DNA of 40,266 bases, from the IMG/VR virus record IMGVR_UViG_3300021962_005923, positions 1-40,266 of that record; one strand, written 5' to 3'. Both the position numbers and the translations under genes were made by a program. Origin of the DNA: a virus. Positions 12,701 to 34,551 of this stretch are shown in pieces. Each line of letters opens with the position of its first letter. Position 1 is the stretch's first letter. The notes below the pieces were generated by a model. It searched no databases. It was not told the DNA's origin and saw only the letters and a list, made by a program, of their open reading frames with translations.

Positions 12701-15700
12701 AGTTACATTAGTTGATGGTTTATCAAACGCATGTGGTCTATCTGTTTCGAGAATAGTAGCAGATCCTGCTGCAATTTTTGTTTGATATTGATGCAGATCA
12801 TAATTAATATCAAGAACGTATTGATAAACATCAATCTCTACATTTGGATCAATACCATCTGTTTCTGATGAATAAATGTAAATACCTGCTGCAGCATTTT
12901 CTGAGCTAGTAGCAAGTAATAGGTTTTGTTGATTAGATCCATTGAATGATCCAATATTTGAATAATCATATGGATCAGTTTTTCTGCCAGGAGCAATTAC
13001 ATAATAAACTGTATTAGTATCAAATCCTTTTGGTAGACGAATAACTCTTTTATCTACATTAACTCCTGCTCTACCTCTCGGAACAAGACGAACAGGTGTT
13101 CCTGTCTCTAACTGGTGTGGGTTTGATGTAGGAAGACCATTGCTATCATACTCAGTTAAAGCAAATAATGTTGCTCTCTGAGCTAAACCACCAGTGTTAA
13201 GAGTTGAAGCAACTCTTGGAACTGTGTTAATTCCACTATTGATAATAGTAGAAAGAATCTGGTAGAAATTGACCAAAGCACTAGCCACTGCAGCACATTC
13301 ACCACCAGGAGCACCTGTAGCGGGATTTGCTGCTGCAGAATAGTTGTAGTCTTGAATTACACTAGAATCTGTTGTAGGTGCAAGAGCAGTGCTCCAAACA
13401 CCAGCAGTTAATTCTACATAAAGATTAACCCCAGTTGAAGTTGAAGTAGCACTAACATTAGTGCCGAAATCTAATTTACTTCCTTGAGTCCCCAATTGAA
13501 TTTGATTTGAAGCAAGACCATTTACACCATCACCAATTTTTTTAATATAAGCAGTTGATGGAATTGTTGTAGTATAAGAAATAGTGCTTTGTGCATTTGT
13601 AGGAATCGCAGAAACACTACGTACCTTCATACCTACAACCAAACCAACTGTGCTTGGAACTGTGATAATAGAAGATCCATTAGTTGTAGATACATCAGAA
13701 ATATAAGTATTGTGATTTCTCATTGCAGAAATCGCCAAATCTCTTACATAACGATATGCATCAAGAGTTTCTAATTTTTCATTCTCAATGTAATCTAATT
13801 GAGTACCTGTGTAATATGCTTCAGCAGCATTAATTGTATTAATATTACCACCTAATCTCAAGTCGGATGTGATTGCTTCTACAATATATCCGATGTCGCG
13901 TTTACACTTACTTGCCTCGCTAACTTGAGACCAAGGACCAGTATTTCTATTTGGTAAGTTATTTAAATTACCAGCAACTAAAGCACTATTGATAATATTT
14001 GTTAATGTGTCAATAGACTGTCGTACATTTGCACAATCAGCATCTCCATTATCTACCGCTGGTAGACCAGATAGACTATTAGCATTTAATACACTAGTGA
14101 TAATAGCAAATAGATTATCAATACCTGATTGTACATCAGTACAAGTAGCACCATTACCAGATTGAGTGTAAGTAATATTACCACCAGATCCACCAGCTGT
14201 TGCTGGTCCTACAGAAAGTGATAAATTCTTGGAATAAAGTTGATTTGTAACAGCTTTCTTGCACCATTCTTTTGCTTTATTAAAAGCGATGACGGATTGT
14301 GAAATTTCTCCAGCAAGACCATTCTGAGTTAGAGTACCTGCTTGAGTAAAATACTCTCTAACTGCACCTACAGTAAACTCGTTACCACCCCAGAAAATAT
14401 CTTGAGCGATAGAGTCAACAATATAACCAATATCTCTCTTGCACTTAGTTTCTCCAGCAGGAGAAGAACCAGTAGATACTGCTGGAAGATTAGATAAATT
14501 ACCTGCACTTAAAGTTGAAGTTACGATAAATGTGAGGTTAACAATTGCTAGTTGAACATCCGCACAAGCACCAGTATTCGTATTTGCAATATTACCACCA
14601 GTACCATTATAGTTTGCTGGTCCTTCAGTAACGCTAGTATCTTTAATTGTCAACTGGTTTGTTATCGCTGATCTCATGAGATCACGAGCTTTAATAAAAG
14701 CAACGTTTGATTGATCTATTTCTCCCTGTAGTCCATTAGGAAGTAATGTAGTAGCGTTGGTGAAATATTGTTCAACAAACTTACGCGAATATACGTTACC
14801 ACCACCTTGAGCAATATCAAGAGATACTGCATCGATGAAGAACCCAATATCTCTCTTACACTTAACAGGATCTGGATTTGTAAATGATGGATATTGAACT
14901 GCAATTTCAGCATATGCACCATCAACAATTTCTTGCTTGTTTTGCTGAATCAAGCGGTATGCATCTTTATATCTTGAAGTTGATGTGGTTTGTGGATCAC
15001 CAGGATAGTAAAAATCTGGTTCTTGAATAGCAATTTCAGCAGCTGCCCTATCAATAATTTCTTGTCTATTAGCAGTAATTAACTTACTTGCATCCTTGAA
15101 TCTTCCTACATTTACATCATCATTGATTGGATCAATAGTAATTGTAGACACATAAACAGCACCAGTTGCATTTGTTACACTAGGAGCAACAGGAACTATA
15201 TATCTAAATTGAGTTGAAGTTAATCCAGAAGCAAGAACTTGATACTTACCATTAAATTCAATCTGAGTAGCACCACCAACAGTAACATACTTGTTTGCCT
15301 GTAAATTATGTGGTGTAGCAGTAGTTACAGTAATTGTAGTACCAGAAGCAGAAAGCGATGGAGTATCTAGCAGCGAAGTGCTTGCTAGTAAGTTTGAAAC
15401 TGCTTTTTTGCACCAATCTTTTGCTCTATTAAATGCAAATACCGATTGAGTCTCTTCACCAGCAAGTCCATTGCTGATGGGTTGCCCCGATGAGTCGAAA
15501 TACGCTTTGGTGGCGTCAATCATATTAGAGTTACCACCGCTATACAAGTCATTAGCGATAGCATCTACAATATACCCAATATCACGCTTACACTTCTCGT
15601 TCTGTGCTCCAGGAACAGTAAACGCAGGGAAAGCAGTTTGCATTTGTAAGAATGCATAATCAATGATTTCCTGTCTATTTGCTTTAATTAGAGTTGAAGC

Positions 15701-17944
15701 GTCTCTATAACGTCCAGTTTCGGAAGTAATATTTGGGTTTACATAAGGAATATTCTGAAGATTTGGATACTTATCTAGAATATAACCAAATGCTTCTGCT
15801 TGAATAAATGTCTTGTTAGCATCAATCAAGTTAGCAGCATCTTGCTTGAGATTGAACTCAGTAGTAAATCCTACACCAGTTGGATTCAAAGTGGATAGTG
15901 ATGCAGTCCACTTTTTGAAACCAGAGTGAATAAGATCTGCTGACTTAGCACCAGATGCATCTAGTTTTACATAGATTTTTTCATTTCTCTTTGCACCTAA
16001 TCTGTATCCATCGATAGACGCTGCTGGACGATCCTCTGGATTGCGAGCATCTTCTGTTCCTAGATATAATCTAGTGGAATTAGGATTTTGTGATGTACCT
16101 CTTACAAGTGGAACATCAAATGTATAATATTGCTTCTTAATTGTCTTTAGAGTAGACAAAGATTTTGGTGGAATAATATCAGTAATGTATCCACCCTTAT
16201 CTTGGTTGAAAGCAAATCCTTTGTAACCAATCGCATGTAGCGAGGTGTTACCGAAGTTGGAGTTAGAGTTGGTGATCGACATGTCACCGCCACTTTCCAT
16301 CAGGAAGTGATCAGCGAAACCAACAGCAAAGATCGAAACGCACTGAATGAAGGAATCATCAGATGCCTTAACGTGGAAGTTTCTCCAATCATCTTTCCAA
16401 TATGCGTCACCCTTAATGTGATAAGGAGTTGTAGCAAACGCATCAGTTAGAGGAGCTTGGTTCCAAGTGTTGCTAAACTCATCATAGCGAATGAACGCAC
16501 GGTCGTCTTTCTGTAGAGAAACACCAGTGTACTGAGCGATAACCATCGATTTGAAACCAGTGGCTTTCTTACCATCTGCCCAGATACCACAAATACCCCA
16601 AGTTGAACGAATCGAAACGTTGAAGACGTATGGAGATGCTGATTCTACACTATCTACCTCCGCCTGTACGGTGGCATTGGTGTCGAGGGCAGGAGAAGAT
16701 GCTGCAGTGTAGGTTGTGCCGCTTACAAGTCCTAGACCAGTCGCTGTAGCAGGTACGCGATAAGTAAATACTTTTGGATCTGTTGCACTGATGCTTGCTA
16801 CTTGGAATACACCATTCAGTGTATCGTTAAGACCATTATTAGTGATAGCAACATATTGACCTGGAAAAAATCCATGATTAATCTTAGTGCGTACACTAAG
16901 AGTTGCAATACCAGCAGGGGAAGAATCATCAACCCTTACTTCATCAAGACGGATAGCATCTTGTAGAGGTCCAACAATTCTGTTTTCTTGTACTCTATAA
17001 TCAAATTCACGACTACGAATAACCATTAGAGTCCATTTTGTAGGACTCGTGGATGGTCTATTATTTGTAGATGAAGCAGAAGCTAGATATGCCTGACCAT
17101 TATATAGAACTTTATCACCAGCAGAATATGTTGTTGTAGAATTCCAATATTCTGTTACAGGAAGAGTTTCTCCCTCAACAAATACATTATCAATAGGTGG
17201 TTGATAATCACTGAAGACATGCGAGATCTTTCTGTAAAGAAGACCAAGATCTTGTCTATCAGCAAAAACAAAGTTAGTAATCTTGTGGTGAGAGAATTCT
17301 GGTACTACCTTAGTAACAGTATCATTTGGTTGTGTATATACTTTACCAATACCAGCAGTTGCATCATATAGAGGTGAATTAGAAGAGAGATCACCATCTT
17401 GAATAGTAAACTGCCAGAAATAGCAACCACCAGTTACATTGAATAGAGCACAACGAGGAACATCTTTGTCTGCTGGATCAGGTACATAAAGTGGGCGAAC
17501 TTGCGTTCTACGCAGGTCCATACCTACAAGAGATGTACCTCTGGGAATGGTAGCACCGCCATCACGACCATTAAATTTATAAAGAATATTGTTGGGATCG
17601 CTGAAGTTAAAACTTACGTTGCTATTTGTTTCCCATTCGCCAAGTGCCTGATTATATTGAAAAACAGGAAGATCATCTACGTTTTCTACGCCTGGTCTGT
17701 TATCAATATAGTGTACACCAGGAGATAGCATGATCGTAAATTGATCAAAACGATCATTATCAATTCCTGGTAAATACGAGAATCTTGCTACTTCAAGAAA
17801 CGCACGCTGAATCGATACAAATGGTCTCGTTGGCGAATTGCCTCTGTTATCTAATGAATCTGTTGCGTTAAAGTCGTCAGGAGATACATAAAGATATTTA
17901 CCAGTCTTGCTTGAAAGTAGATTATCTAATCTCGTTAATGGCAT
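6743..17944 (-). CDS. Giant 3733-residue virion structural / tail-fibre-like protein
   Basis: One uninterrupted frame of 11.2 kb, the largest gene here. The N-terminus (LYVSPDDFNATDSLDNRGN, SIQRAFLEVARF, LSPGVHYIDNRPG) matches what I recall of large virion proteins of marine T4-like phages and suggests a beta-helix start. Residues about 740-1415 hold a repeated module (see the repeat entry). The C-terminal half is low-complexity Thr/Ser/Asn/Gly beta sequence with fibre-like phrases such as NNGRIGIN, SGNGRITGDF and ESDIEVNGG. It ends in a Gly-rich domain finishing GWWLMEI. No enzyme signature was found. A TATAAATA late promoter lies 38 bases upstream of its start, just past a terminator, so it opens the late fibre transcript. 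The likely role is a baseplate-attached fibre or a peripheral baseplate protein. The T4 counterpart (gp10-like or long-fibre) is not resolved. Confidence 0.75.
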   Translation of the reverse strand: MPLTRLDNLLSSKTGKYLYVSPDDFNATDSLDNRGNSPTRPFVSIQRAFLEVARFSYLPGIDNDRFDQFTIMLSPGVHYIDNRPGVENVDDLPVFQYNQALGEWETNSNVSFNFSDPNNILYKFNGRDGGATIPRGTSLVGMDLRRTQVRPLYVPDPADKDVPRCALFNVTGGCYFWQFTIQDGDLSSNSPLYDATAGIGKVYTQPNDTVTKVVPEFSHHKITNFVFADRQDLGLLYRKISHVFSDYQPPIDNVFVEGETLPVTEYWNSTTTYSAGDKVLYNGQAYLASASSTNNRPSTSPTKWTLMVIRSREFDYRVQENRIVGPLQDAIRLDEVRVDDSSPAGIATLSVRTKINHGFFPGQYVAITNNGLNDTLNGVFQVASISATDPKVFTYRVPATATGLGLVSGTTYTAASSPALDTNATVQAEVDSVESASPYVFNVSIRSTWGICGIWADGKKATGFKSMVIAQYTGVSLQKDDRAFIRYDEFSNTWNQAPLTDAFATTPYHIKGDAYWKDDWRNFHVKASDDSFIQCVSIFAVGFADHFLMESGGDMSITNSNSNFGNTSLHAIGYKGFAFNQDKGGYITDIIPPKSLSTLKTIKKQYYTFDVPLVRGTSQNPNSTRLYLGTEDARNPEDRPAASIDGYRLGAKRNEKIYVKLDASGAKSADLIHSGFKKWTASLSTLNPTGVGFTTEFNLKQDAANLIDANKTFIQAEAFGYILDKYPNLQNIPYVNPNITSETGRYRDASTLIKANRQEIIDYAFLQMQTAFPAFTVPGAQNEKCKRDIGYIVDAIANDLYSGGNSNMIDATKAYFDSSGQPISNGLAGEETQSVFAFNRAKDWCKKAVSNLLASTSLLDTPSLSASGTTITVTTATPHNLQANKYVTVGGATQIEFNGKYQVLASGLTSTQFRYIVPVAPSVTNATGAVYVSTITIDPINDDVNVGRFKDASKLITANRQEIIDRAAAEIAIQEPDFYYPGDPQTTSTSRYKDAYRLIQQNKQEIVDGAYAEIAVQYPSFTNPDPVKCKRDIGFFIDAVSLDIAQGGGNVYSRKFVEQYFTNATTLLPNGLQGEIDQSNVAFIKARDLMRSAITNQLTIKDTSVTEGPANYNGTGGNIANTNTGACADVQLAIVNLTFIVTSTLSAGNLSNLPAVSTGSSPAGETKCKRDIGYIVDSIAQDIFWGGNEFTVGAVREYFTQAGTLTQNGLAGEISQSVIAFNKAKEWCKKAVTNQLYSKNLSLSVGPATAGGSGGNITYTQSGNGATCTDVQSGIDNLFAIITSVLNANSLSGLPAVDNGDADCANVRQSIDTLTNIINSALVAGNLNNLPNRNTGPWSQVSEASKCKRDIGYIVEAITSDLRLGGNINTINAAEAYYTGTQLDYIENEKLETLDAYRYVRDLAISAMRNHNTYISDVSTTNGSSIITVPSTVGLVVGMKVRSVSAIPTNAQSTISYTTTIPSTAYIKKIGDGVNGLASNQIQLGTQGSKLDFGTNVSATSTSTGVNLYVELTAGVWSTALAPTTDSSVIQDYNYSAAANPATGAPGGECAAVASALVNFYQILSTIINSGINTVPRVASTLNTGGLAQRATLFALTEYDSNGLPTSNPHQLETGTPVRLVPRGRAGVNVDKRVIRLPKGFDTNTVYYVIAPGRKTDPYDYSNIGSFNGSNQQNLLLATSSENAAAGIYIYSSETDGIDPNVEIDVYQYVLDINYDLHQYQTKIAAGSATILETDRPHAFDKPSTNVTPQLVFFRPGSDIVGSSLPTLSSTFGGATISGKNLYYVRYVTSTRFTIHETFANARDNINPISFQPGSTAVFYTFADKRRSPLRYDPKIGTAATDGCWYLETLSAGNTIIPRIKQSDYAGRLRTTDSYFERIEDSRSKEDRIYRLRYVVPKNLKTVRDPIRGFVLKVRTDEKRRLVPQRIILKPTSTGADTATLLAPVSGERLGLTLQEQLVLNPNFSSTYDPSSFGNPKRLETNSKVAFTIQSARKVLINNKNYLQLNVFDIGIDAEAYKTKLFTTVKISAPEGGNGTFVASVPNSNNTNKVTWSGNCSGTAYVHGYFAYENNYYMILKDFAGNSTIDYDSVTATTFTQGSVTATLLEEPNSGRSDTTKYPYIVEGANVYTITPGDRVNDDNGVSYTIASVEDVSDMESTFYIFDINTIRRRIPGQQDGVYYLTCVRGDIRPYPTGSGVGENFRNFKFSQPISKLYPEFYKNDPEWYKGVDISTTTLSDPPPTVSTADNYVHGLVTVNDAKNSLTKEMVLDFVQDPGTGGYSFNGSAAITAQNGSASAGSEGRRIPINGTSTYPTEGKFYVELRRPSIARSGNHTFEYLGFGPGNYSTGFPARQEIVLTDVQDFYAQAKKQDAGIVFYTGLNSNGDLYIGNRKINAITGEETFLESAKLTESTDEADVIGGLVTTFDTAVTFNEIITVNGSEGRAESFFNAPIVINNTTAFGSVENFPSLKIVTGEGTVVGYDPYLEVNISQQKTGDIILHQGRIQTTVVDFNPRGLQDYQIMTALSNRTPDLANTFGLTTNGPSQLQNTDFGTKFPLASGLIQLKGNQTLFTGSLGWIYANDYIRIENRSGGGFNAQIIGIQGAASGTLVRLTWNIGITNTNLQITSSSQIRITGATGALAPINGVWPVYSSTQSPFVPNGNFVTILVNANLPQYTGIPLPNNGYPVDAVSQPNIVIEKSKASFKEFGVLGSESLRTETETIGDYKLGINTVARSAHSAYQTAFVSAETTPRANLDVVGTGFISGKKILSYLTETGTTKTETNQAAAFLVGGDSANPLTTAATLRVATTNNGRIGINVNDANLDRTFVVSGNGRITGDFKFESDIEVNGGDITTTNAAFNIANQSNALTFSAGAFATTANLFNSATASQTINIGTAVTASGTLNAHTNVYNSVVNLGIADDVVDPTTPNSPPSSLITIGGAFVNQSQSIFRVKNYQTVLDGTLEIKGTQMFATTPTGVFTMFPTNLNTIRIAPTAGTVEIGGVAGTTTLRNGLRVNNKAIFESDIEQNGGFRNGNIGISRNVLGTIRIASISRTGTTATITTTSPHGLTQSEQVEIACSNETFNTIGSTSVLTIPTTTSFTYTTVTSGNVASGTPATGTVIRPNIGAIHATGGLNNLNIDYYARVLNIASALSITAVVGVTQPVNSTKLLVSNNYFVPGNKVKFVTLGNLSSSSVNLNTTYYVVESDTAGFTISTTSGGNPIVINLNSGTSGPGSASIRLEQTEVDISGGGYLTSTATILPVNNPNGIGINELFLIGTEIVKTTNLPSLNYPYTVEIARAQDGTAAVAHGDGARIVKLIKNENASFIDAAAGTSDTTIQISEFSGTFAVDDLLRLDKGTSSDEFVKVAAINPDDAQTFEINNGGTGVQKVLTFKVTTTSGDTFALGDVTIGTDSSVATGTSTSLTSTGGGNLKVHNSIELSGNSSTSVPDKQYFVITNGSSPRLYVESASGNTRLYNGANLQIFKDAFFTSGTFDKTKIDGAVDIAFEVLGSTGNSKVAGTLTIGDDVTIKNGLAGADTFTVDAQTGTTYIGRHLTINGLSSSSPSAGVVSLQVTNLGVSGNKPFKIKQDASIDAFGRNNFYGVNGGRRTIMINNTSGTAGPLEPNSQYLVRPTADLILTLPGGGGTGDTTPQTGDVIRFVDVQGSLNYNVSLKVRAPVGVALQGSTSGSGGYAGGELIVNTPNAGFALIFVGITDSDGNGIPDTNRGWWLMEI
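13700..15725 (-). repeat. Internal repeat array (CKRDIG modules) in the giant virion protein
   Basis: Four copies of a module of roughly 75 residues start with KCKRDIG (near residues 785, 1033, 1168 and 1350). Each continues with a hydrophobic helix (YIVDAI, FFIDAV, YIVDSI, YIVEAI), then a D-[LI]-x(3)-GGN-like turn in most copies. The first three end NGLxGE(E/I)xQS with a following helix, which in copies 1 and 3 contains WCKKAV. Three copies of a second motif, R-[YF]-[RK]-DA-x(2)-LI-x(2)-N-[RK]-QEI-[IV]-D, alternate with the first two. The similarity is also visible in the DNA, so these are duplications. Boundaries are approximate. Confidence 0.8.
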
Positions 17945-18042: not shown

Positions 18043-18114
18043 AGCCCCAAGTCGGACTTGAACCAACGACCGCTCGCTTACAAGGCGAGTGCTCTACCAC
18101 TGAGCTATTAGGGC
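18043..18114 (-). tRNA. trnT-TGT: tRNA-Thr (anticodon TGT)
   Basis: A full cloverleaf of 72 bases can be drawn: acceptor GCCCTAA/TTGGGGC (one G-T pair), D stem GCTC/GAGC, anticodon stem CTCGC/GCGAG with loop CTTGTAA, T stem GTTGG/CCGAC with loop TTCAAGT, discriminator T. CCA is not encoded. It reads ACA and related Thr codons. Its first seven bases overlap the end of cpeT, and the acceptor TAA is the stop codon of cpeT. Confidence 0.95.
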
Positions 18115-18575
18115 ATTTTGACGAACTCAAAAGGACCATTATAAGATCCCCAGATTTGCTCGTCAGTATTTATGTCATATCCTTGATCGATTACATGGTA
18201 GTAGTCATTTCCAAGAATACTGGTGGTTTGAAGGCGGGTCTGTTTATCTTGCCATTTTACAAAGCATTCATTACAGAGATTTTTGCCGATAAACTCAGAA
18301 CCCTGCTTCTCCATTATTATATCGCATCCAGTCAAGTATGTCAATCCCTCATTCTTGTAATTTTTGAGAATTAGACGAGAATCGTTCTGAACTACTTCGA
18401 TGATCGTGTTCCGATATGGAACTTTGTCAACATAATACTGCTGAATGCAGTGAAAGCGGTTGCCATCAAGTTTTTCATGAATTAGTTCAATCATCGCAAA
18501 CTTAGTAGGATGCGACATTGCTTGCATACAATTATTAAAAGTGCCTTCAAAATAACGAAAAAATTCTTCAATCAT
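18108..18575 (-). CDS. cpeT: CpeT/CpcT-type phycobiliprotein chromophore lyase
   Basis: A 155-residue protein with the CpeT family pattern: a start of the type FFRYFEGTFNNCMQA, then PTKFAMIELIHE, a CIQQYYVDKVPYRNTI strand, KNYKNEGL, TGCDIIME near residue 85, a CFVKWQDKQT segment, and the closing WGSYNGPFEF near 142-151. Cellular CpeT/CpcT proteins help attach phycoerythrobilin or phycocyanobilin to a cysteine of phycobiliprotein beta subunits. Cyanophages often carry a short version. At 155 residues this one is shorter than most host forms (around 200). Its start overlaps the upstream 88-codon gene by 8 bases, so translation is probably coupled. Its last two codons lie inside tRNA-Thr. It is inferred to act on host light harvesting during infection, and it points to a phycobiliprotein-containing host. 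Enzyme activity is not proven by the sequence. Confidence 0.85.
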   Translation of the reverse strand: MIEEFFRYFEGTFNNCMQAMSHPTKFAMIELIHEKLDGNRFHCIQQYYVDKVPYRNTIIEVVQNDSRLILKNYKNEGLTYLTGCDIIMEKQGSEFIGKNLCNECFVKWQDKQTRLQTTSILGNDYYHVIDQGYDINTDEQIWGSYNGPFEFVKMP

Positions 18576-25494: not shown

Positions 25495-28047
25495 TTATCC
25501 ACCCCAATGATTTGTTGACAATACACTGAATGCTAACCCACTACCAAATGGAGAATTTACTAGTTCTGCAGTTGATTGTGTTTCTTGTGGAGGTGCCACT
25601 GGTATTGATTGCTGTGATTGATTGCTTACTATATTTACAATAGCACCAATGTCAGTTGATTCTGTCATCGATGTTGCCATAGGGACATAGCTGGCAGCAG
25701 ATACTTTTGGAGCAGATGGTTGCTTAATTGATTGTGTAGTACCACCACTCTCTTGTGGTCTCAACAACTTCATATATTCTGCTTGCTGATCACGTACATT
25801 ACGCATGTTCTTTGCCATGCCTCCAAGATTTCCTTGCCTTGCAGAATCTTGTAATCCACCAACTACTTTATTGGATGCTCCCTGACCCATTGGAGTAGTC
25901 AACCATTTCCACAACCAATCAAGACCCCCCTCTGCCTGTAGCATTGGTTGTGGTTTGATTGATCCGCCCGATTCTTTATTAGGTGGTATATATTTTACTG
26001 CTTGACCTCTGCCTGGAGCGTGTTTTTCATATGCTTCTACAACTATTTTATGTGCTCTTTGTAGTAACGCTTCATTCAATCCACCCTTTTTAGGATTCGA
26101 TAAATCTACTGGTTGATCTGTCCCTGCAAAACCAGCACCGACTTTAAATACTTCATAGTCACCATTTGTATAATTCAAAAGAACTTTATATTTTTGTCCG
26201 TCACCAGTGTGAGTAAACGGAAATGTTCTTTGAGTAACAGTAGTTGATGTTAAATTTCCCTTTGCAGTTTCACTTGATGTTCTACCATGATCTGCTCCAC
26301 CTTTATTTGTTACTTCCTCTGATCCTGGTTCTTGTCCATCCATAGGTCTATCAGCACCAGCAGTTTGTCTCTGTGATACAGATCCTGTAGATGGATTGGA
26401 AGGATTAGATTGTTTTTTCTGTTCTTCTTCTGTTTGTGGAGGGGGAGTTGGTGCTGGCGGTGGTGGCGGTGGTGCGGCAGGAGCAGTTTCTTTTTTCTTT
26501 GCTCCCAAAGATTCTAAAGATCCTGCGATTAAATCTTTTACAAATTTTTCACGATTCTTTTTGGAAGATGTATCTTCTCTAAACTTACCACCACCAATCG
26601 AAAGATTGGGAAGAGTCTGTGACATACCAAATGTCTTGGCAAGATTACTGATGTCAGAACCTAATGCTTGAGACACTGGACCGCCAAGTGCTCCCATAGA
26701 TTTGATGAATTGATCAGTAACTGCAAGCATTGATCCCGCTGATGCTTGCATCGAAGGATCCATTCCAACTTTGGATTTTGCTGGAGAATCTGCAGAGTGT
26801 AAAGGAACAACTGCTTCCTTACCTGCTTCACCAATCATAGCATTTGTACCACCAGCTGCCATCTTGCCTGCCATTTCCTTAGTAGCAGCTTGGTTGCCAT
26901 AAATGTTTCCGAACCCGCCCTTCTCATCAGAAACAATATTCAAGAAGTCAATACGATTCATCCAACCACGAGCATGTTCTCTGATACGAGTGTCATACTT
27001 CGCCAAGTTCATTGCTTGCTCTTCCTTCTGCTTCTCGTTCAAGAAAGGATTAGCAATTAATTCACCAAGCATTCTTACAGGCGCTCCACCTACGTCAGCA
27101 GCAACTCCTAATGTTTTACCAACCTCACCAAGTCCTGTTTGTCCAACTTGTAATGTCTCATCAAAGAAAGTATTTTCTCCTCTTGCTTTCTTCTCTTCAA
27201 TTAGTTTTCTTCTATCTTTTAATGACTGATCGCCCATCTTACCTAGCTGGAACATGCCTTCGCCGCCTGCGCTGAGCAACGCACCGACTCCCAGCACAGC
27301 AGCAGCAGGTGCTACGGCGGTTCCCGCTTGCGCTAGACCCTGCATACCTGCTTGACGAGCACCCTGCAGCGCAGCACCACCACCAAAACTCATTGCTAAA
27401 TCTTTCAATCTTTGAAGGTTTTCAAACATTGCTTGTGTAAATGAACTTCCGTTACCACCAACACCAGCAACACTAGTATTACCAAACATACCAGCAATTC
27501 CACCATCTCCTCCACCTCCACCGAGTCCACCACCAAGACCTATAGCATCAAGGAATGATGTCTGAACTTCTAGTTGATCAGCAAGTATAGCATTGATCCC
27601 CTGAATACCAGATGACATATCACCTTCAATATTCAACTGAGAATTCATAATCTCAGTGAGAGCAGCAAGACCTCCACTAATAGCAGTGGTATCTGCTGCT
27701 AAAGATCCAAATCCAGTAAGCAGAATCTTCTCTAATCCTTTTGCTTTTCCTCCAGATGGTTTTTTTCCTCCACCACCTTTAGGTTGTTTCTGCTTTTTCT
27801 TTTTACCACCTCCCAACATAGCACCAGTAGCAGTAGAATTACCACCACCTGTTGCACTTCTGCCACCAAATAATCCACCAAATAAATTTTTTGTAAATGC
27901 TTTACGAAATAATCCCTTACGATCTTTGTCGTCTACCTTACCACCATCTTTAACTACTTTATCTTGTCTCGCTTTCTCGGCTTTCGCTTCCTTACGAGAT
28001 TTAAATGCTTGTTTTACTAGAAATCCCGTTAAGCTACTTTCTGCCAT
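25495..28047 (-). CDS. Probable tape-measure / hub tail protein
   Basis: 850 residues. The N-terminus is very basic (AFKSRKEAKAEKARQDK, GGGKKKKQKQPKGG), followed by Gly-rich and helical stretches. Near residue 410 lies GGTNAMIGEAGKEAVVPLHS, the GEAG-x-EAV-x-PL phrase common in tape-measure proteins. A Pro-rich linker (AAPPPPPPAPTPPPQ) sits at about 520-535. The C-terminal part has YVPMATSMTESTD. No muralytic domain is visible. Its ATG follows a short gap with a near-consensus late promoter (28070-28077). In T4, gp29 is both hub part and tail ruler; this gene or its two large upstream neighbours probably fill that place. Which one sets tail length is not shown by sequence. Confidence 0.6.
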   Translation of the reverse strand: MAESSLTGFLVKQAFKSRKEAKAEKARQDKVVKDGGKVDDKDRKGLFRKAFTKNLFGGLFGGRSATGGGNSTATGAMLGGGKKKKQKQPKGGGGKKPSGGKAKGLEKILLTGFGSLAADTTAISGGLAALTEIMNSQLNIEGDMSSGIQGINAILADQLEVQTSFLDAIGLGGGLGGGGGDGGIAGMFGNTSVAGVGGNGSSFTQAMFENLQRLKDLAMSFGGGAALQGARQAGMQGLAQAGTAVAPAAAVLGVGALLSAGGEGMFQLGKMGDQSLKDRRKLIEEKKARGENTFFDETLQVGQTGLGEVGKTLGVAADVGGAPVRMLGELIANPFLNEKQKEEQAMNLAKYDTRIREHARGWMNRIDFLNIVSDEKGGFGNIYGNQAATKEMAGKMAAGGTNAMIGEAGKEAVVPLHSADSPAKSKVGMDPSMQASAGSMLAVTDQFIKSMGALGGPVSQALGSDISNLAKTFGMSQTLPNLSIGGGKFREDTSSKKNREKFVKDLIAGSLESLGAKKKETAPAAPPPPPPAPTPPPQTEEEQKKQSNPSNPSTGSVSQRQTAGADRPMDGQEPGSEEVTNKGGADHGRTSSETAKGNLTSTTVTQRTFPFTHTGDGQKYKVLLNYTNGDYEVFKVGAGFAGTDQPVDLSNPKKGGLNEALLQRAHKIVVEAYEKHAPGRGQAVKYIPPNKESGGSIKPQPMLQAEGGLDWLWKWLTTPMGQGASNKVVGGLQDSARQGNLGGMAKNMRNVRDQQAEYMKLLRPQESGGTTQSIKQPSAPKVSAASYVPMATSMTESTDIGAIVNIVSNQSQQSIPVAPPQETQSTAELVNSPFGSGLAFSVLSTNHWGG

Positions 28048-28069: not shown

Positions 28070-28077
28070 TATTTATT
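28070..28077 (-). promoter_or_regulatory. Candidate late promoter before the tape-measure-like gene
   Basis: AATAAATA on the minus strand, one base off TATAAATA, 22 bases before the ATG at 28047 and overlapping the TAA stop of the gene before. The spacing resembles the exact late promoters in this window. One mismatch in AT-rich DNA keeps confidence modest. Confidence 0.4.
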
Positions 28078-30454
28078 TGGTGCGTCTCATATTTAATTCA
28101 GACCTAACTCGATTGCCATTGAATACAGGTATTGGTATCAATCTTGTTATAGTTTGTTGTGCTTGCTGTATAAATGATGGTGATGATCCACCACCACCTA
28201 CTCGATTAACAATGACTCTTGGAGCAGAATTAGCTCTAGGTTGTACCTTAGTTAAATCAGTAGGACCACTTAACACTAATCTCTTTTCATTCTTTTCTCT
28301 TGCTGGCAATCCACGATCAATGTTTGCTGCCACTGCTCGCATGTCACCTCTGTTCAATGCCGCATACATCTTAGGAGCACCAGTGCCAAGTAAATGTGCT
28401 GGTTGATTATATCCATATGCTAAAAGTCCTGCTTGCTGAGAAGGAGACATTCTATTCCAAAACTTTTGATACCATTTCTGCGAACTTAGTGTCTTAGTAT
28501 AATTAGCAACCAGATTCTTGAGCATCGCATCTGCTTGCTGCTTCTTAATTGTTTGACCTGGCTTTACTGCTTTTGTGCCAGCAGTAATTGAATCATAATA
28601 AGTCATGCCCCATCCTATCGTTGTTCTGTCTCCAGATACACCAGTTTCATATGCATACAATGGAGTGGAAGATGCTACCTTTCCCCAAGGCACAGATGAT
28701 ATTACACTCTGACCACCATGCACAATGTAATCATTCTTTCCTCTTGATAATGATGACAATGCTTCGTCGTGTTGAATCGCTTTCACACCAAGAGAGATGC
28801 CATCTTGTGCTGTTCTAAAAGTAGTTGTGCTATTACCCCCATCAATCTGTTTCCATCTCGCCAAAACTTTTTCTGGATCTTCAAAGAAATCATATTTTCT
28901 GTTTATGAAAGGATAAATTTGAACACCATCTGTAGTTGGTACACCAAATTCAACACCATGCATAGTGATAGGAATGCCACCAAATGTAACTGGGTATCCA
29001 CTCTTAGGTCCAGAAATAACCACTGGTTCTGTTCCAGGTATATTTAATTGACCTCCACTTTCAAATCCTTTTGCTTTGTATTGTGCATAATATTCTCGTT
29101 TTTTAGGCCACCCAAGTTGCACACCACCAACTGCTCTCAAAGAAGATTCTAAATCTTTTGGACTTCCTCTCCTCTGCATATAAGCAACTGCTGCTTTTGC
29201 TGCTACAGAATCATTCAATATTGCATCTGGATTTTGTTCCAAATCCACTCCAATCATCTCACCAATATTTTTATAGTTAGCTCTACCTGTTAACTGAATA
29301 TAACCACCACCTCTATATCTCCATCCATCACCAGATGACTCTGGACCATTACCAATAATATTAGCATATGCATAATTAAATACTGCTTCTCCTGTCGTAT
29401 CGGCATTTACTAATTGTTCTGCTTTTGCTCTAGATATTCTTGGCCAGACACGAACAACTTGATCAACACTACGATAAGGATATTCTCTAACTAATTTAAA
29501 CGAAGATTCTCCTTTAATGATTGCTAATAGTGCTGCCAAATCACCTGTATAACCCATCTCTTTAGCAGCATCAATAACTGATTGTTCACTTCCTTCTCCT
29601 GGTGGATAGTTTGGATTTGCTGCTGCAGCCGCATCAGATGTTCTATCAATATACAATGCAACAAACTCAGAGTCATTTAAAAAAGCACTCCATGTTTTTC
29701 CAAATTCTTTTTGATACTCTTTACTTTTTAATTCTCCAGCATGTACTGGTCCACCAAGTAATGTGTTAACAACATTTTGTCCTACTCCCATAGCAATAGC
29801 AAAAGGAGTAGCAGCAGTTTTAACAAATGGTTTAAAGAAACCAGCAAGAGGACCAAGAGATGATATAAACTCTCCCAACACAGATATTGCAGTAAGTCCA
29901 GCAGCTTTTGGTTGCAACTGCATAACATCAGCAAATTTTATCTGTTTATTTTTTTCACTAGGATCAGTAGATTCTTGTGTTGGTGGTGTCATCTTAGTTG
30001 TACCACCAGCAGCCAATTTTTCTGGTTCTGCGGACTGCTCTTCTGGTTCTGGTTCTGGTTCAACAGGAGCAGGTGGTTCCTCAGAAACAACAGGTTCTGG
30101 TGGTGTTTGATTCTCTAAAATTCTTTGATAAAATTGTTTCTCTAAACTCGTTCTCTCTTCTACGAGATTTAAAATATCTGCAATTAATTTTTGTGCATCC
30201 TCTTGCTTCTCCAGTAGAGTCGTAGCAATTTTAATCTGCTTGAATTGTTCTCTCTTAATCGAAGAAGTTTTTTTACCAAGTATTTGAAATGCTTTATCAA
30301 GTTGCTCTTCAAATGATTGGCCAGATTTACTTTGCTCTTGTACTTTACTGGTAAAAAATCCAGTCAATGTAGAAGAAGAGGAAGCATTAGACTGCTTACC
30401 TGCTGGTCTTTTATTTGTTGCTTGACTAAAAATATATTCATTAAGAGTTGTCAT
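28073..30454 (-). CDS. Tail protein with two wall-cutting domains (GH19 and GH24 types)
   Basis: 793 residues. The first ~165 are helical and acidic with a Pro/Glu run (EEPPAPVEPEPEPEEQ). Residues ~195-265 share a segment with the upstream 832-residue protein (LLGGPVHAGE here, LLGGPAYAGE there). A GH19-like domain lies at about 300-450: AIIKGESSF (likely catalytic Glu near 316) and RGGGYIQLTGRANYKNIGE, the family signature. A second, GH24-like lysozyme region at about 590-730 has DRTTIGWGM, PGQTIKKQQADAML and MSPSQQAGLLAYGYN. The usual catalytic Glu of GH24 is not clearly placed, so that domain may be altered. The role is inferred as a virion-borne muralytic enzyme for injection, replacing the lysozyme missing from the gp5-like protein. 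Its ATG overlaps the previous stop (TAATG). Confidence 0.75.
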   Translation of the reverse strand: MTTLNEYIFSQATNKRPAGKQSNASSSSTLTGFFTSKVQEQSKSGQSFEEQLDKAFQILGKKTSSIKREQFKQIKIATTLLEKQEDAQKLIADILNLVEERTSLEKQFYQRILENQTPPEPVVSEEPPAPVEPEPEPEEQSAEPEKLAAGGTTKMTPPTQESTDPSEKNKQIKFADVMQLQPKAAGLTAISVLGEFISSLGPLAGFFKPFVKTAATPFAIAMGVGQNVVNTLLGGPVHAGELKSKEYQKEFGKTWSAFLNDSEFVALYIDRTSDAAAAANPNYPPGEGSEQSVIDAAKEMGYTGDLAALLAIIKGESSFKLVREYPYRSVDQVVRVWPRISRAKAEQLVNADTTGEAVFNYAYANIIGNGPESSGDGWRYRGGGYIQLTGRANYKNIGEMIGVDLEQNPDAILNDSVAAKAAVAYMQRRGSPKDLESSLRAVGGVQLGWPKKREYYAQYKAKGFESGGQLNIPGTEPVVISGPKSGYPVTFGGIPITMHGVEFGVPTTDGVQIYPFINRKYDFFEDPEKVLARWKQIDGGNSTTTFRTAQDGISLGVKAIQHDEALSSLSRGKNDYIVHGGQSVISSVPWGKVASSTPLYAYETGVSGDRTTIGWGMTYYDSITAGTKAVKPGQTIKKQQADAMLKNLVANYTKTLSSQKWYQKFWNRMSPSQQAGLLAYGYNQPAHLLGTGAPKMYAALNRGDMRAVAANIDRGLPAREKNEKRLVLSGPTDLTKVQPRANSAPRVIVNRVGGGGSSPSFIQQAQQTITRLIPIPVFNGNRVRSELNMRRTK

Positions 30455-32952
30455 TACATCATCCTCCTAATCTCATTAATCTCTAGAATATCATTCGTTG
30501 ATATGTCTACAAATACTGGTACAATCTTAGTAGCAGGAGCAGACATCATTTGAAATGATGGTGCCATAGATGTTGGTGCTTCAATATTATACACTTTTGG
30601 TTTTGATTTATCAGCAGAAACAACAGGAGTTATAGACGCACTCTTCATTTTTGGTACTGGTGTTGGTGCAATCTGTTTTGACTCTTGAACCTTGATTGCA
30701 GAAACACCTGACTCTGCTTTGATTTTAATTTGACCACCTGATTCTAATGAATCAATTGAAACTTCATCTCCAAGTGCTCCTCTACTATTAATTTTATATA
30801 ATTTGTTATTCATTCTGACAATCTTATCTTTATCATATTGAGTATATCGATCAATTTCATACTCAGGATAGTCCATTATATTCTTTCTCGGTGAAGTTGG
30901 AGCACCCAATGATCCAGATACTTTATTTTGATGAGTCCATTCTACTGGATCTACTTGTCCACCACCCGCACTTTGTCTTACTTCCCAATGCAAGTGAGGA
31001 CCAGTGGAGTGACCAGTATTTCCGAGAGTACCTATAACTTGTCCTGCAGATACCTTAGATCCAACTTGTAATCCATCAGCAACTTCTTTCATGTGACCAA
31101 AGTACATCCATACTTTAGGACTGCCATATTTAATACCAACAAAGTTGCCGTATCCACCCCCGTCGGCTGGATTCTGTTCTCTCACAACTCCTTTATTTAA
31201 AACATAAACTTCGCCTGCCATAGGAGATATAATTCTAATTCCTCTATCACCATCCAAATCAATACCACTATGTAATCTCCCACCGCGCATACCAAATCCA
31301 GAAACATATCCAATCTTCTTACTATCTGCTTTGGAGAATGGTATCCATGCTGGCAATTTTCCTACGTTTGTTCCACCAACATATCTTAAGTCACTAGCAG
31401 AACTAATAACAGCAATGTCTTTAGATATTTCTGGATTACCTCCACCCCCACCACCTAATAATGCAGACAATCCCTTGAAGAAGAGATTGTTTTCTTTCAT
31501 GAATGTCTTCCACGAATCATAGAAAGAATTTCTTTCTTCGCTATCTTCTTCACCAGCATATGCTGGTCCACCCAGAAGATCCAGAATAGTATTTGAAGAA
31601 ACTTTTAATAACGAGGATAGTGGTCCGATCAATGCTTGCACGCCAGCACTAAAATAACCAGCAAAAGCTCCAAGAGATTTTATAACACTACCGACATTGG
31701 CAATAGCACCGCCAAGCAAAGCATTCATTGGTTTATACATTGTCTCGCCAAGTGCTTGAATATATTGCTGAGTATCATACTGACCCATCAACTCTTTACC
31801 AGAGTTTCTATTCAATGGAATGACTGCTGAGTTGGGTGGCAGTGTTCCTATTGTTGGGTTGTCATAGATGCCAGGCTTCAGCATCTTCTCAGCGAAGTTT
31901 GGTGCTACATTCACACCACCTTCAGCAAACCTACCTGGATATGGAGTGTTTAAGAATCCACCTTCTGATAATTTTTCTGCTGGTAGTCGTGGCGTAAATC
32001 CTTGCTCGTTACCTACATCCTCTGGACCAGCTGCCGCCCATGGCGTAGGTGACTCCATTGGTTGTGGTCCAATAGGAGCACTATACGCTTCGGTGATTCT
32101 CTGCTGCGTCTCTAAATCATCCAGTGCTTCTCTATAATTTTCTACTTGTTGCCCAAGTAAAAATTTAGTGGACTCTAATCCGTTTATAATTCTTCTATAG
32201 TTTCCTTCCCTGCGTTGTAGTATTCGTGTCTGTTTAGACATTTGCCTACGAATACTATCAAGATTTCCAGCAAAGTTCCTGATCGTAGTTCGTACTTCAG
32301 GGCTAAGAGTTTCTGGTATGATGAAAGATTTTTCTTTCTTTTGTTTCTTCTCCTGCTGAGGTTTCTCTACCTCAGGTTCAGGATCTTTTGCTGGTGGTAA
32401 AAGTAATGTTGGTTCGGTAGTGACAGGAGTAACAATATTTGGTACTGTCTCACTGCCTTCCCAAGGATCAGGAATGTCTAAAGGATCTGCGGGTAATAAC
32501 TTATCCTGTGGTTGTACTTCAGGTTGTGGTTTATTGTTTAGAGTATCAGCAATCTCTTTTTTCTTTTCTTGTATCTCCTTTACTCTTCTTTCGATCTCTG
32601 CTTCTTCAATCTTCTGATCTACTTTCTTACGAAAGGGTTTCTCAAGATACTCTTCTACTAACCATTCCTGATATATTCTTTGCCTCTCCATCCACTCGAC
32701 AGGAGTGCCACTCTCTTGATCTAAAGATGGATAACCTCTTGGATCTTTTTTTATATTTTCAATCAACCTATCAGCATCTGCATCAGAGAGATTTACATAT
32801 GAAGTATAGCTTTCATCTCCCTGTCTTCTGCCAGTTAATTTAGATTTTAAAATCAACCACAATCTAGAGTTAGGATTAATCCTACTCCAAGGCATCGTTG
32901 GATGTAATACTCCTTCTGGTGGTTGTGGTAAATCTAAATCTTCTGGATTCAT
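30454..32952 (-). CDS. Tail protein with M23 peptidase domain
   Basis: 832 residues. The N-terminal half is charged and coiled-coil-prone (KKVDQKIEEAEIERRVKEIQ, RRQMSKQTRILQRREGNYRR). Near 380 lies a tape-measure-like phrase (GTLPPNSAVIPLNRNSGKEL). Residues ~413-490 are similar to part of the next gene. An M23 metallopeptidase domain at about 545-675 shows the zinc ligands: RLHSGIDLDGD (H-x(3)-D) near 562 and GPHLHWEV (H-x-H) near 655, plus GxVIGTLGNTG. M23 enzymes cut peptidoglycan cross-bridges. Its start overlaps the stop of the small upstream frame (ATGA). It is probably a hub or tape-measure protein that enters the periplasm and opens the wall during DNA injection. Confidence 0.75.
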   Translation of the reverse strand: MNPEDLDLPQPPEGVLHPTMPWSRINPNSRLWLILKSKLTGRRQGDESYTSYVNLSDADADRLIENIKKDPRGYPSLDQESGTPVEWMERQRIYQEWLVEEYLEKPFRKKVDQKIEEAEIERRVKEIQEKKKEIADTLNNKPQPEVQPQDKLLPADPLDIPDPWEGSETVPNIVTPVTTEPTLLLPPAKDPEPEVEKPQQEKKQKKEKSFIIPETLSPEVRTTIRNFAGNLDSIRRQMSKQTRILQRREGNYRRIINGLESTKFLLGQQVENYREALDDLETQQRITEAYSAPIGPQPMESPTPWAAAGPEDVGNEQGFTPRLPAEKLSEGGFLNTPYPGRFAEGGVNVAPNFAEKMLKPGIYDNPTIGTLPPNSAVIPLNRNSGKELMGQYDTQQYIQALGETMYKPMNALLGGAIANVGSVIKSLGAFAGYFSAGVQALIGPLSSLLKVSSNTILDLLGGPAYAGEEDSEERNSFYDSWKTFMKENNLFFKGLSALLGGGGGGNPEISKDIAVISSASDLRYVGGTNVGKLPAWIPFSKADSKKIGYVSGFGMRGGRLHSGIDLDGDRGIRIISPMAGEVYVLNKGVVREQNPADGGGYGNFVGIKYGSPKVWMYFGHMKEVADGLQVGSKVSAGQVIGTLGNTGHSTGPHLHWEVRQSAGGGQVDPVEWTHQNKVSGSLGAPTSPRKNIMDYPEYEIDRYTQYDKDKIVRMNNKLYKINSRGALGDEVSIDSLESGGQIKIKAESGVSAIKVQESKQIAPTPVPKMKSASITPVVSADKSKPKVYNIEAPTSMAPSFQMMSAPATKIVPVFVDISTNDILEINEIRRMM

Positions 32953-33116
32953 TTGGCGTTCTTTTGGTTCTGCTCTTCTATGTACTGATTAAGCATCGTA
33001 ACATAAACAATTCTTTCCCAAGGAAGCATGTTCTCAAGTTCAGCTAATGAAAATTTATGATGATAAACCAAATTAAAATTAGATTGATAATGATTAATCA
33101 GATTATCATGGAACAT
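32949..33116 (-). CDS. Small gp51-position frame, likely the frameshift extension of gp26
   Basis: 55 codons from the ATG at 33114-33116 to the TGA at 32949-32951. It reads MFHDNLINHYQSNFNLVYHH, then KFSLAELENMLPWERIVYVT and a short polar tail. The middle resembles second tail-assembly chaperone frames (short helix, LP-x-ER). It lies where T4 has gene 51 (after 26). Its frame is -1 relative to gp26 and open back across the end of gp26, so it may be made as a 295-residue gp26 fusion by slipping at 33125-33131. Otherwise it may start alone by re-initiation, since the ATG comes 2 bases after the gp26 stop. Its stop overlaps the start of the 832-residue gene as ATGA. Confidence 0.65.
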   Translation of the reverse strand: MFHDNLINHYQSNFNLVYHHKFSLAELENMLPWERIVYVTMLNQYIEEQNQKNAK

Positions 33117-33118
33117 GC

Positions 33119-33835
33119 TTATCCGAAAAAATTTACCAGACCCTCGATAGTATATTCAGATTCAACTCCTGTGTTTGGATTCTTCACACTAAATGTATGA
33201 GAAAGTTTCGGCATCGTAGCAAAGAAATCTTTGATTTTTTCAAACTGCTTTGATGTCAGACCACCCAACCATTCCTCTACTTCTTTCTTTGGTGTGTTCT
33301 TTGCCTCATACACGTCTTCACCAGCAAAGATTTGATGCACAGAATCTACAATGATGTCAAACACTTCTTCAGCATTCAAACTCTTCATCATGATTTGTGT
33401 TTGAATGAACTGATCAATGCCAGGATACTTCATGATAACTCCAGAAGTATCATCAAGCATAATCTTATTAGTATGCTTAGGATCTTTCTGAACCTGAACA
33501 TCTTCAAGATTTAAACTATAATCTACTTGTGTTTCGTTATCATCGCGGCATGTAATTTTCATTCTAACATCTTCACCGACTGACTTGCCGCGAATGTTTA
33601 GAAAGATATATTCGATATCAAATGAAGCAAGATCAGATACTTTAATTCCTCTAGTAAGAATGCAACTCTTTACAATGTCTACTACAGCATTCGTAATCTG
33701 CTTTTCATCTTCCGATTCCATCGCCATCAGAAGAACTTTCTCTTCGCTAACTAGAAATGGTCTGTACTTAACTTGTTTTCCTGTTGAAGGTAATTCCAAT
33801 TCATAAGTTGGAACTGGGGGCTTTGGTAAAGGCAT
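33119..33835 (-). CDS. gp26: gp26-type baseplate hub / tail assembly protein
   Basis: 238 residues matching the T4 base-plate protein family that includes gp26: YELELPSTGKQVKYRPFLVS at about 10-29, EEKVLLMAMES, a long helical middle and an IDQF-containing segment (MKYPGIDQFIQTQIM), then KIKDFFATMPKLSHTF near the end. This family plays the part of a tail-assembly chaperone or hub factor. The last codons (AAT TTT TTC GGA TAA) contain a slippery run. The upstream gap has a near-consensus late promoter 27 bases before the ATG. The protein heads the long minus-strand hub transcript. Confidence 0.8.
   Translation of the reverse strand: MPLPKPPVPTYELELPSTGKQVKYRPFLVSEEKVLLMAMESEDEKQITNAVVDIVKSCILTRGIKVSDLASFDIEYIFLNIRGKSVGEDVRMKITCRDDNETQVDYSLNLEDVQVQKDPKHTNKIMLDDTSGVIMKYPGIDQFIQTQIMMKSLNAEEVFDIIVDSVHQIFAGEDVYEAKNTPKKEVEEWLGGLTSKQFEKIKDFFATMPKLSHTFSVKNPNTGVESEYTIEGLVNFFG
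33125..33131 (-). promoter_or_regulatory. Candidate -1 ribosomal frameshift site at the end of gp26
   Basis: The heptamer T TTT TTC is in phase with gp26 codons (…AAT TTT TTC GGA TAA) and of the X-XXY-YYZ type. A -1 slip leads to CGG ATA AGC and then straight into the 55-codon frame. It sits two codons before the gp26 stop. No clear downstream stem-loop was seen. Confidence 0.6.
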
Positions 33836-33861: not shown

Positions 33862-33869
33862 TATTTATT
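33862..33869 (-). promoter_or_regulatory. Candidate late promoter for gp26 and the hub cluster
   Basis: AATAAATA on the minus strand, one base off the late consensus, 27 bases before the gp26 ATG and overlapping the stop of gp54. Same spacing as the exact late promoter of gp4. Confidence 0.45.
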
Positions 33870-34551
33870 ATCTATTTGGCCAAGACAATCCTTTCTCAGC
33901 ATTTGGATCTCTATCCCAAGAAGTATAATAGAAGTTAGCAGTACATTTTACTAACTGAGAAGAACCATATGAAAGAGGAACAGCATCAACTGAATATGGC
34001 CAAGCATTATGTAATGTAAACTTCATTGTTTGAGCTCCAATTTCACTTGTAGCATCTCTTTCTCTTTTCTCCACATATAATTTACATTGATATTCTTTTG
34101 GATATCTCAACTTCCTTGTCTTTTCACCCCCACCAAGACCTATGTTTGAAGTTGTATTGTATATGAAATCATTCCAATCCAAGAGAAATTTGAATGCTTG
34201 CATCTCACCATCACACATAAATGAAAGTTGTAGATCGTTATAGATGGGAGCAGTTGGATAATAAATTGGTCCTTGACCCTGAAATCTTCCCGCAACTGAT
34301 CCAGTATTAATTTGAATTCCTGGCAGAGAAACTTCATCACACATCAACATAATCCTTTCACCAACTTTATGAGGTTGAAGTTTATTGCTCACAGATTCCA
34401 ATCCATCTTGTCTACCTTTATCTCTAAGATTGGCACGCAATTCATCAGTCAGTGTAAAATATACTGCATAAGTATTGCTTTTCGCCATCCCCCTTCCATT
34501 GGTAATAGCAGTTAGATAGCTTCTAATCGCTCCGTTGCCAGTTCTCGCCAT
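33868..34551 (-). CDS. gp54: gp54-like baseplate tail-tube initiator
   Basis: 227 residues. The pattern fits tail-tube-fold proteins that start tube polymerisation: MLMCDEVSLPGIQIN near 90, then IYNDLQLSFMCDGEMQAFKF followed by LLDWNDFIYN (compare the strand plus D-W-x-x-x-x motif of T4 gp54), and the C-terminal KFTLHNAWPYSVDAVPLSYG strand hairpin, LVKCTANFYYTSW. T4 gp54 is about 320 residues, so this is a shorter form, as usual in marine relatives. It is transcribed leftward from an exact late promoter at 34576-34583. gp48, its partner in T4, is encoded close by on the other strand. Confidence 0.65.
   Translation of the reverse strand: MARTGNGAIRSYLTAITNGRGMAKSNTYAVYFTLTDELRANLRDKGRQDGLESVSNKLQPHKVGERIMLMCDEVSLPGIQINTGSVAGRFQGQGPIYYPTAPIYNDLQLSFMCDGEMQAFKFLLDWNDFIYNTTSNIGLGGGEKTRKLRYPKEYQCKLYVEKRERDATSEIGAQTMKFTLHNAWPYSVDAVPLSYGSSQLVKCTANFYYTSWDRDPNAEKGLSWPNR

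Follow-up and report, generated by a model that had tools for sequence, protein, structure and literature searches.

Known tail-assembly chaperone frameshifts

The lambda G/GT frameshift (Levin 1993; Xu 2004, 2013) has been reviewed as a feature of long-tailed phages 'except T4' (PMC5009743). For T4-like phages, the tail-assembly chaperones (TACs) and frameshifting were reportedly identified by Vladimirov, Gautam and Davidson (Virology 2022;566:9-15, PMID 34826709). In two papers citing it, poly-T -1 slippery sites are described as known in the TAC-N genes of T4-like phages (PMC12846349), and a short gene with a fused long gene as the arrangement used instead in 'some T4-like phages' (PMC10885494). 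A poly-T -1 site (GTTTTT) also ends TAC-N in the Vandenendeviridae and phage Adele, and the -1 frame is open throughout the former family (PMC12846349). The subject of this analysis is the gene 26 and gene '51' pair in a stretch of cyanophage DNA of 40,266 nucleotides (nt), i.e. IMG/VR record IMGVR_UViG_3300021962_005923, positions 1 to 40,266 (the window). Conservation of the junction between the two frames indicates that -1 programmed frameshifting of the lambda G/GT type, at a T_TTT_TTC heptamer in gp26, very probably makes TAC-N and TAC-NC from this pair.

Like lambda G/GT, the window locus has a (here probable) -1 slip site close to where the short frame ends and an extension in the next frame, and it lies between the tail tube gene and, in the window, a candidate tape measure gene. 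The slippery heptamer is a different one, which in lambda is GGGAAAG, and no sequence relation of the lambda proteins to those of the window is shown here. The Vandenendeviridae and Adele belong to another phage family and have a shorter T run, and are likened to the window by their site rather than by protein comparison. T4 shares a match to the gp26 profile and a gp51, in the T4 group, that is colinear with the frameshift fusion; it differs in that both forms come from two divergent genes and frameshifting is unnecessary. The gene pair is the same as that of the T4-like gp26/gp51 TACs, and the window is a further case of a kind of system first known from lambda and reported for T4-like phages in 2022.

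In the proposed mechanism, genes 26 and '51' would constitute a single TAC locus. The majority of ribosomes would terminate at the TAA to give gp26 (TAC-N), and a minority would slip back by one base with peptidyl- and aminoacyl-tRNA-Phe on U_UUU_UUC, probably aided by a Shine-Dalgarno (SD)-like GAGGG lying about 9 nt before the slip site and, among relatives, by 3' RNA structure as well. Slipped ribosomes would then read CGG AUA AGC AUG... and produce a gp26-gp51 fusion of 295 amino acids (TAC-NC). If the proteins act as their lambda G/GT analogues do, the tape measure protein would be coated by gp26, and tail tube protein would be brought in by the gp51 domain carried on the few long copies; these chaperone roles of gp26 and the fusion are suggested by lambda and by gene position. 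Slippage in infected cells, and its rate, we infer from sequence. Expression of the short 'gp51' frame, in cyanophages as in their relatives, is probably explained by frameshifting; in many public cyanophage records gp51 is either entered as a gene of its own or left out.

The gp26/gp51 junction

Relatives were drawn from IMG/VR with three gp26 queries and supplemented with named phages. Representatives (i.e. gp26 <90% identical) numbered 93, of which 91 carried the heptamer, and these 91 fell into 31 clusters at 60% identity. The p-values given below assume independent representatives and are made too optimistic by shared descent; the 60% clusters provide the safer figure. The following features were located at the junction.

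33119..33835, minus strand: gene 26, 238 codons, putative short tail-assembly chaperone (TAC-N / lambda G-like); PF12322, phrog_150
33125..33131, minus strand: slippery heptamer T_TTT_TTC, phased to allow a -1 tandem slip; conserved, with synonymous sites frozen
33128..33134, minus strand: second heptamer A_AAT_TTT, in phase and overlapping T_TTT_TTC; restricted to the clade of the window and some further clades
33119..33121, minus strand: zero-frame stop TAA of gene 26, 3 nt 3' of the heptamer
32949..33125, minus strand: -1 extension, RIS plus gp51 (putative TAC-C / lambda T-like), open in all representatives; phrog_634
32949..33116, minus strand: 55-codon gp51 open reading frame with its own ATG; an independent start is possible, though unproven, in the window's clade

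The gp26 of the window matched the Pfam family T4_baseplate (PF12322, E 3e-70), and is hence a member of that family, and matched phrog_150, 'baseplate hub', at E 1.1e-75. The 3' end of gene 26 and the junction read GAG GGT CTG GTA AAT TTT TTC GGA TAA GC ATG. The gp51 ATG at 33116 lies 719 nt after the gp26 ATG and is in the -1 phase. After a slip, the reading CGG ATA AGC ATG TTC CAT is free of stops into the 55-codon frame (FF-RIS-MFHDNL...), giving a fusion of 237 + RIS + 55 = 295 residues. The 55-residue gp51 matched phrog_634, 'baseplate hub assembly catalyst', at E 3.8e-21 with the C-terminal part of the profile covered. An earlier note on this DNA, made from the letters alone, had described a gp26 end of AAT TTT TTC GGA TAA, an in-phase T TTT TTC and a 295-residue fusion, all of which are exact in the sequence.

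Conservation of the slippery heptamer

TTTTTTC was seen 17 times in the window as compared to 15.2 expected, so that the heptamer alone is not enriched; it goes beyond chance because of its conservation in phase and not because of its lone occurrence. An in-phase T_TTT_TTN was found near the gp26 end in 240 of 242 loci having a gp26 stop and in 91/93 representatives (TTTTTTC in 82, TTTTTTT in 7 and TTTTTTA in 2), with the stop 3 nt beyond the heptamer in 75 of the 91. Almost all relatives examined outside the T4 group proper thus kept the signal, and its range covered marine cyanophages, KVP40 and phages of Pelagibacter, Rhizobium, Caulobacter, Stenotrophomonas and Delftia. Named carriers were S-PM2, S-CAM1, P-RSM4, Syn30, HTVC008M, KVP40, PX29, phiM19, Cr30, RL2RES (with T_TTT_TTG), PhiW-14, OLIVR5, Ps15, XG4 and RHph_I1_18. 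The overlapping A_AAT_TTT was rejected, as probably not a conserved slip site, with AGT, GCT, TCT or GAT replacing AAT in most relatives.

The earlier note had put forward gp26 and the 55-codon frame as a likely -1 frameshift pair and had suggested an alignment of the junction across cyanophages. This alignment supports the pairing, the heptamer and the open -1 frame being kept across cyanophages and far beyond. Relatives without the run, or with the second frame in another phase, had been named as evidence to the contrary; the only cases found were Vibrio phage K393, considered below, and IME-SM1, in which one T is missing. IME-SM1 (L085, KR560069; 1492-2334) has five T at the slip site as compared to six in the related Ps15. 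A natural in-frame fusion was rejected for this phage, as the sequence is one T short of Ps15 and the annotated gene leaves the gp51 frame. The missing T is probably a homopolymer sequencing error, and the annotated gp26 therefore continues in the wrong frame.

Codon usage at the slip site bears on whether a conserved Asn/Ser/Ala/Asp-Phe-Phe peptide, together with codon bias, yields the heptamer as a by-product, its phase arising by chance. Phe-Phe is indeed conserved in the protein, with F236 and F237 invariant, but the codons are not those expected from the remainder of the same genes. The first Phe of the slip site, Phe236, was encoded by TTT in 91/91 representatives and the second by TTC in 82/89, whereas elsewhere in these genes Phe-Phe was encoded as TTT-TTC in just 3 of 82 cases, i.e. 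the opposite choice, and other near-invariant Phe positions of gp26 were mixed (TTT:TTC of 41:37, 43:45, 59:21 and 27:59). The residue preceding Phe-Phe varied (Asn, Ser, Ala, Asp and others), yet its codon ended in T every time, and the -1 frame was always open. Relatives with TTC TTT or TTC TTC at the site and gp51 in another phase were not found. A by-product of peptide and codon bias is hardly credible against this pattern.

Candidate stimulatory elements

Two candidate stimulators flank the heptamer.

33140..33145, minus strand: SD-like GAGGGT in gene 26, with 9 nt between the end of GAGGG and the heptamer
33050..33124, minus strand: 3' region with RNA structure in relatives; clear stem-loops in marine clades, weaker in the window

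Pairing between mRNA and anti-SD peaked immediately upstream of the heptamer in relatives. It was stronger than in synonymous recodings in 75/91 representatives (p 6.6e-12) and, against the same null, in 24 of the 31 clusters at 60% identity (p 3.6e-5). Glutamate codons agreed in direction, with GAG:GAA of 60:9 at the SD-like site as compared to 588:1333 elsewhere. The frameshift element of E. coli dnaX has a similar SD-like spacing.

Predicted 3' structure in relatives exceeded that of dinucleotide shuffles only beside the heptamer (mean z -1.85) and was near 0 elsewhere. It also exceeded that of recodings in which the protein read in the -1 frame is preserved (mean z -2.22, n=90 representatives; -1.74 for 60% clusters), for which control regions gave z of about -0.75 to +0.1. 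Marine clades exhibited stems of 9-12 bp beginning 4-7 nt past the heptamer. An ungapped pair scan with swapped arms for one 3' stem shared by position returned an excess of <0.05; with no positional stem homology between clades, the structure is clade-specific and cross-clade covariation is unusable. The SD-like element and the signal of 3' structure were quantified here, as were the start-less representatives counted below; any of these may already be contained in Vladimirov 2022.

These elements also bear on transcriptional slippage, in which RNA polymerase, and not the ribosome, would slip on the T6 run. Homopolymer runs are able to cause polymerase slippage, six consecutive T are present every time, and the phase of the run could be fixed by the Phe-Phe peptide itself. 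Against this, the run stays at six T and is always phased as T_TTT_TTN, with at least seven T at the slip site in 7/91 representatives, and polymerase slippage needs no fixed phase, no internal SD-like element and no 3' RNA structure. Slippage by the polymerase is accordingly considered very improbable.

The -1 frame and start codons in relatives

In all 91 heptamer-bearing representatives the -1 frame continued without a stop from the slip site into and through gp51, the two shortest ending at contig ends. Upstream of the slip site this frame was closed inside a few dozen bases in most representatives and is therefore not a longer overlapping gene. No ATG, GTG or TTG was present between the upstream -1 stop and codon 12 past the heptamer in 28/91 representatives, for which a separately started gp51 is thus hardly possible, and an ATG was absent from the 12 codons past the heptamer in 50/91.

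Start codons are central to translational coupling, under which gp51 would be a separate protein of 55 residues made by restart at the ATG 2 nt past the gp26 TAA. An ATG so placed occurs in the window and near relatives with a weak GGA upstream, and gp51 is annotated as its own gene in many public records. This explanation is contradicted by the 28 representatives with no usable start and the 50 with no nearby ATG, and by the records of S-CAM1 and Syn30, in which the gp51 frame is left unannotated. Coupling also leaves unexplained the frozen TTT TTC codons, the position of the SD-like element before the heptamer and not before the ATG, and the in-frame fusion of the T4 group described below. 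As a replacement for frameshifting it is unlikely; a coupled start could act additionally in the window's clade.

Frameshifting at T_TTT_TTC may form part of a wider arrangement, in which a three-part cassette (i.e. an internal SD-like element, U_UUU_UU[C/U/A] and clade-specific 3' structure) is used outside the T4 group and gp51 is, in many lineages, solely the tail of a frameshift product. The balance of the evidence leans towards this extension, with appreciable doubt. If it is true, the 55-residue gp51 that public cyanophage records call a 'baseplate hub assembly catalyst' would not be a free protein, and in the T4 group the frameshift would have given way to a gene duplication.

In the records of S-CAM1, Syn30 and C48C1 (L264, L266 and L268), gp51 either lacks an annotation or is given an internal start. 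The gene was missed or misplaced there because the frame has no ATG near the junction, and these records would be better annotated with a joined frameshift coding sequence.

Relation to gp26 and gp51 of T4

T4 carries gene 26 on one strand and gene 51, of 249 codons, on the other. Vladimirov et al. reportedly place frameshifting in several T4-like groups, with 26 and 51 being two separate genes within the T4 group. Profile comparison (hhalign) of the gp26 family gave 99.6% with T4-group gp26 and also aligned residues 6-200 of T4-group gp51 (97.5%, E 4.9e-12); T4-group gp51 and gp26 matched one another at 98.7% (E 1.7e-16). The gp51 of the window matched residues 207-237 of T4 gp51 by BLASTP (E 4e-4 in a single comparison) and residues 189-241 of phrog_23772 (E 0.0014). 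On these alignments, the gp51 frame of the window and the C-terminus of T4 gp51 are homologous. In AlphaFold models, the gp26 of the window (predicted local distance difference test, pLDDT, 87.6) and T4-group gp51 (pLDDT 88.3) had helices and strands in largely the same order, to which gp51 added three C-terminal helices.

T4-group gp51 looks like a gp26-like domain and a gp51 domain in one frame, i.e. the long form of the frameshift fusion. Because it matches both the gp26 profile and the gp51 of the window, the long form is its own gene in the T4 group, and the T4 counterparts are gp51 for the fusion and gp26 for free gp26. The suggestion of the earlier note that 26 and 51 are separate in T4 and would be linked by a fusion holds for the two genes and needs amending for gp51, which is itself the long form with the gp26-like domain included. 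The same protein pair is thus very probably made by recoding in most of the phage group, and the T4 branch makes it from two genes. Cyanophage gp51 has been said to lack the first ~200 residues (Sullivan et al., PMC3037559); these appear to be lacking because they are supplied by gp26 in the fusion.

Several observations weigh against the frameshift interpretation or parts of it. Vibrio phage K393 (L083, OZ196574; 2200-2240) is without the heptamer. The gp51 ATG of the window sits directly past the gp26 stop, so placed that a free product of 55 residues is possible in this clade. The 3' structure of the window itself had a z of -0.6 against dinucleotide shuffles, which is not significant; a relative with a gp26 identical to that of the window (L001) had a z of -2.35 against the protein-preserving codon null. 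The two nulls disagree, and a 3' element in the window phage itself is not established. In a fold search of 350,542 PDB chains, the first match of the gp26 model was the HK97 TAC (gp13, 2ob9), with a probability of 0.90 but an E of 0.53 over 59 aligned columns. A fold search with the T4-group gp51 model found no TAC, and a PDB sequence search with the gp26 profile gave no meaningful match. A TAC fold of gp26 is, from these models, weakly supported.

In the -1 frame, K393 has an ATG that overlaps the stop of gp26 (TAATG), and coupled initiation may possibly have replaced frameshifting in that phage.

Neighbouring genes

The junction is flanked by the following genes.

33868..34551, minus strand: tail tube protein gene; phrog_45, E 1.4e-37; Pfam Phage_TTP_2, E 7.9e-36
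30454..32952, minus strand: gene for an 832-residue protein with an M23 peptidase domain, overlapping gp51 by ATGA; candidate tape measure on grounds of location and size

Gene order in the window was tail tube, gp26, gp51 and large gene, with the tail tube gene directly upstream of gene 26 (the lambda V position). In HTVC008M, Cr30 and RHph_I1_18 the annotated tape measure follows gp51 after a small open reading frame. The sole Pfam match of the 832-residue protein was M23 peptidase, and comparison with its counterparts in S-PM2 and HTVC008M, aimed at a tape-measure identity, revealed no similarity. The gene next in line qualifies as a tape-measure candidate from its position and size; in sequence, it matches a peptidase and no known T4-like tape measure.

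The genes at 28073-30454 and 30454-32952 (minus strand) are consecutive, each of about 800 codons, with a shared-looking hydrophobic LLGGPxxAGE segment. Both carry wall-degrading domains, GH19 and lysozyme in the former and M23 peptidase in the latter. Either of the two could be the tape measure. The 850-codon gene at 25495-28047 (minus strand) lies between the GH19/lysozyme protein gene and a tail protein gene and had no PHROG match at E 0.001.

Two further frames on the minus strand were recorded. A CpeT-like antenna protein is encoded at 18108-18575 (phrog_488, E 1.5e-39) and fits a phycobilisome-bearing cyanobacterial host. An open frame of 3733 codons (6743-17944) lies in the virion-structure region and gave a partial match to the Phycobilisome family PF00502 (E 6e-10, residues 726-797), in which no single stretch passes alone, besides a weak match to CBM_5_12. 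The combination of PF00502 and CBM_5_12 is odd for a phage structural protein.

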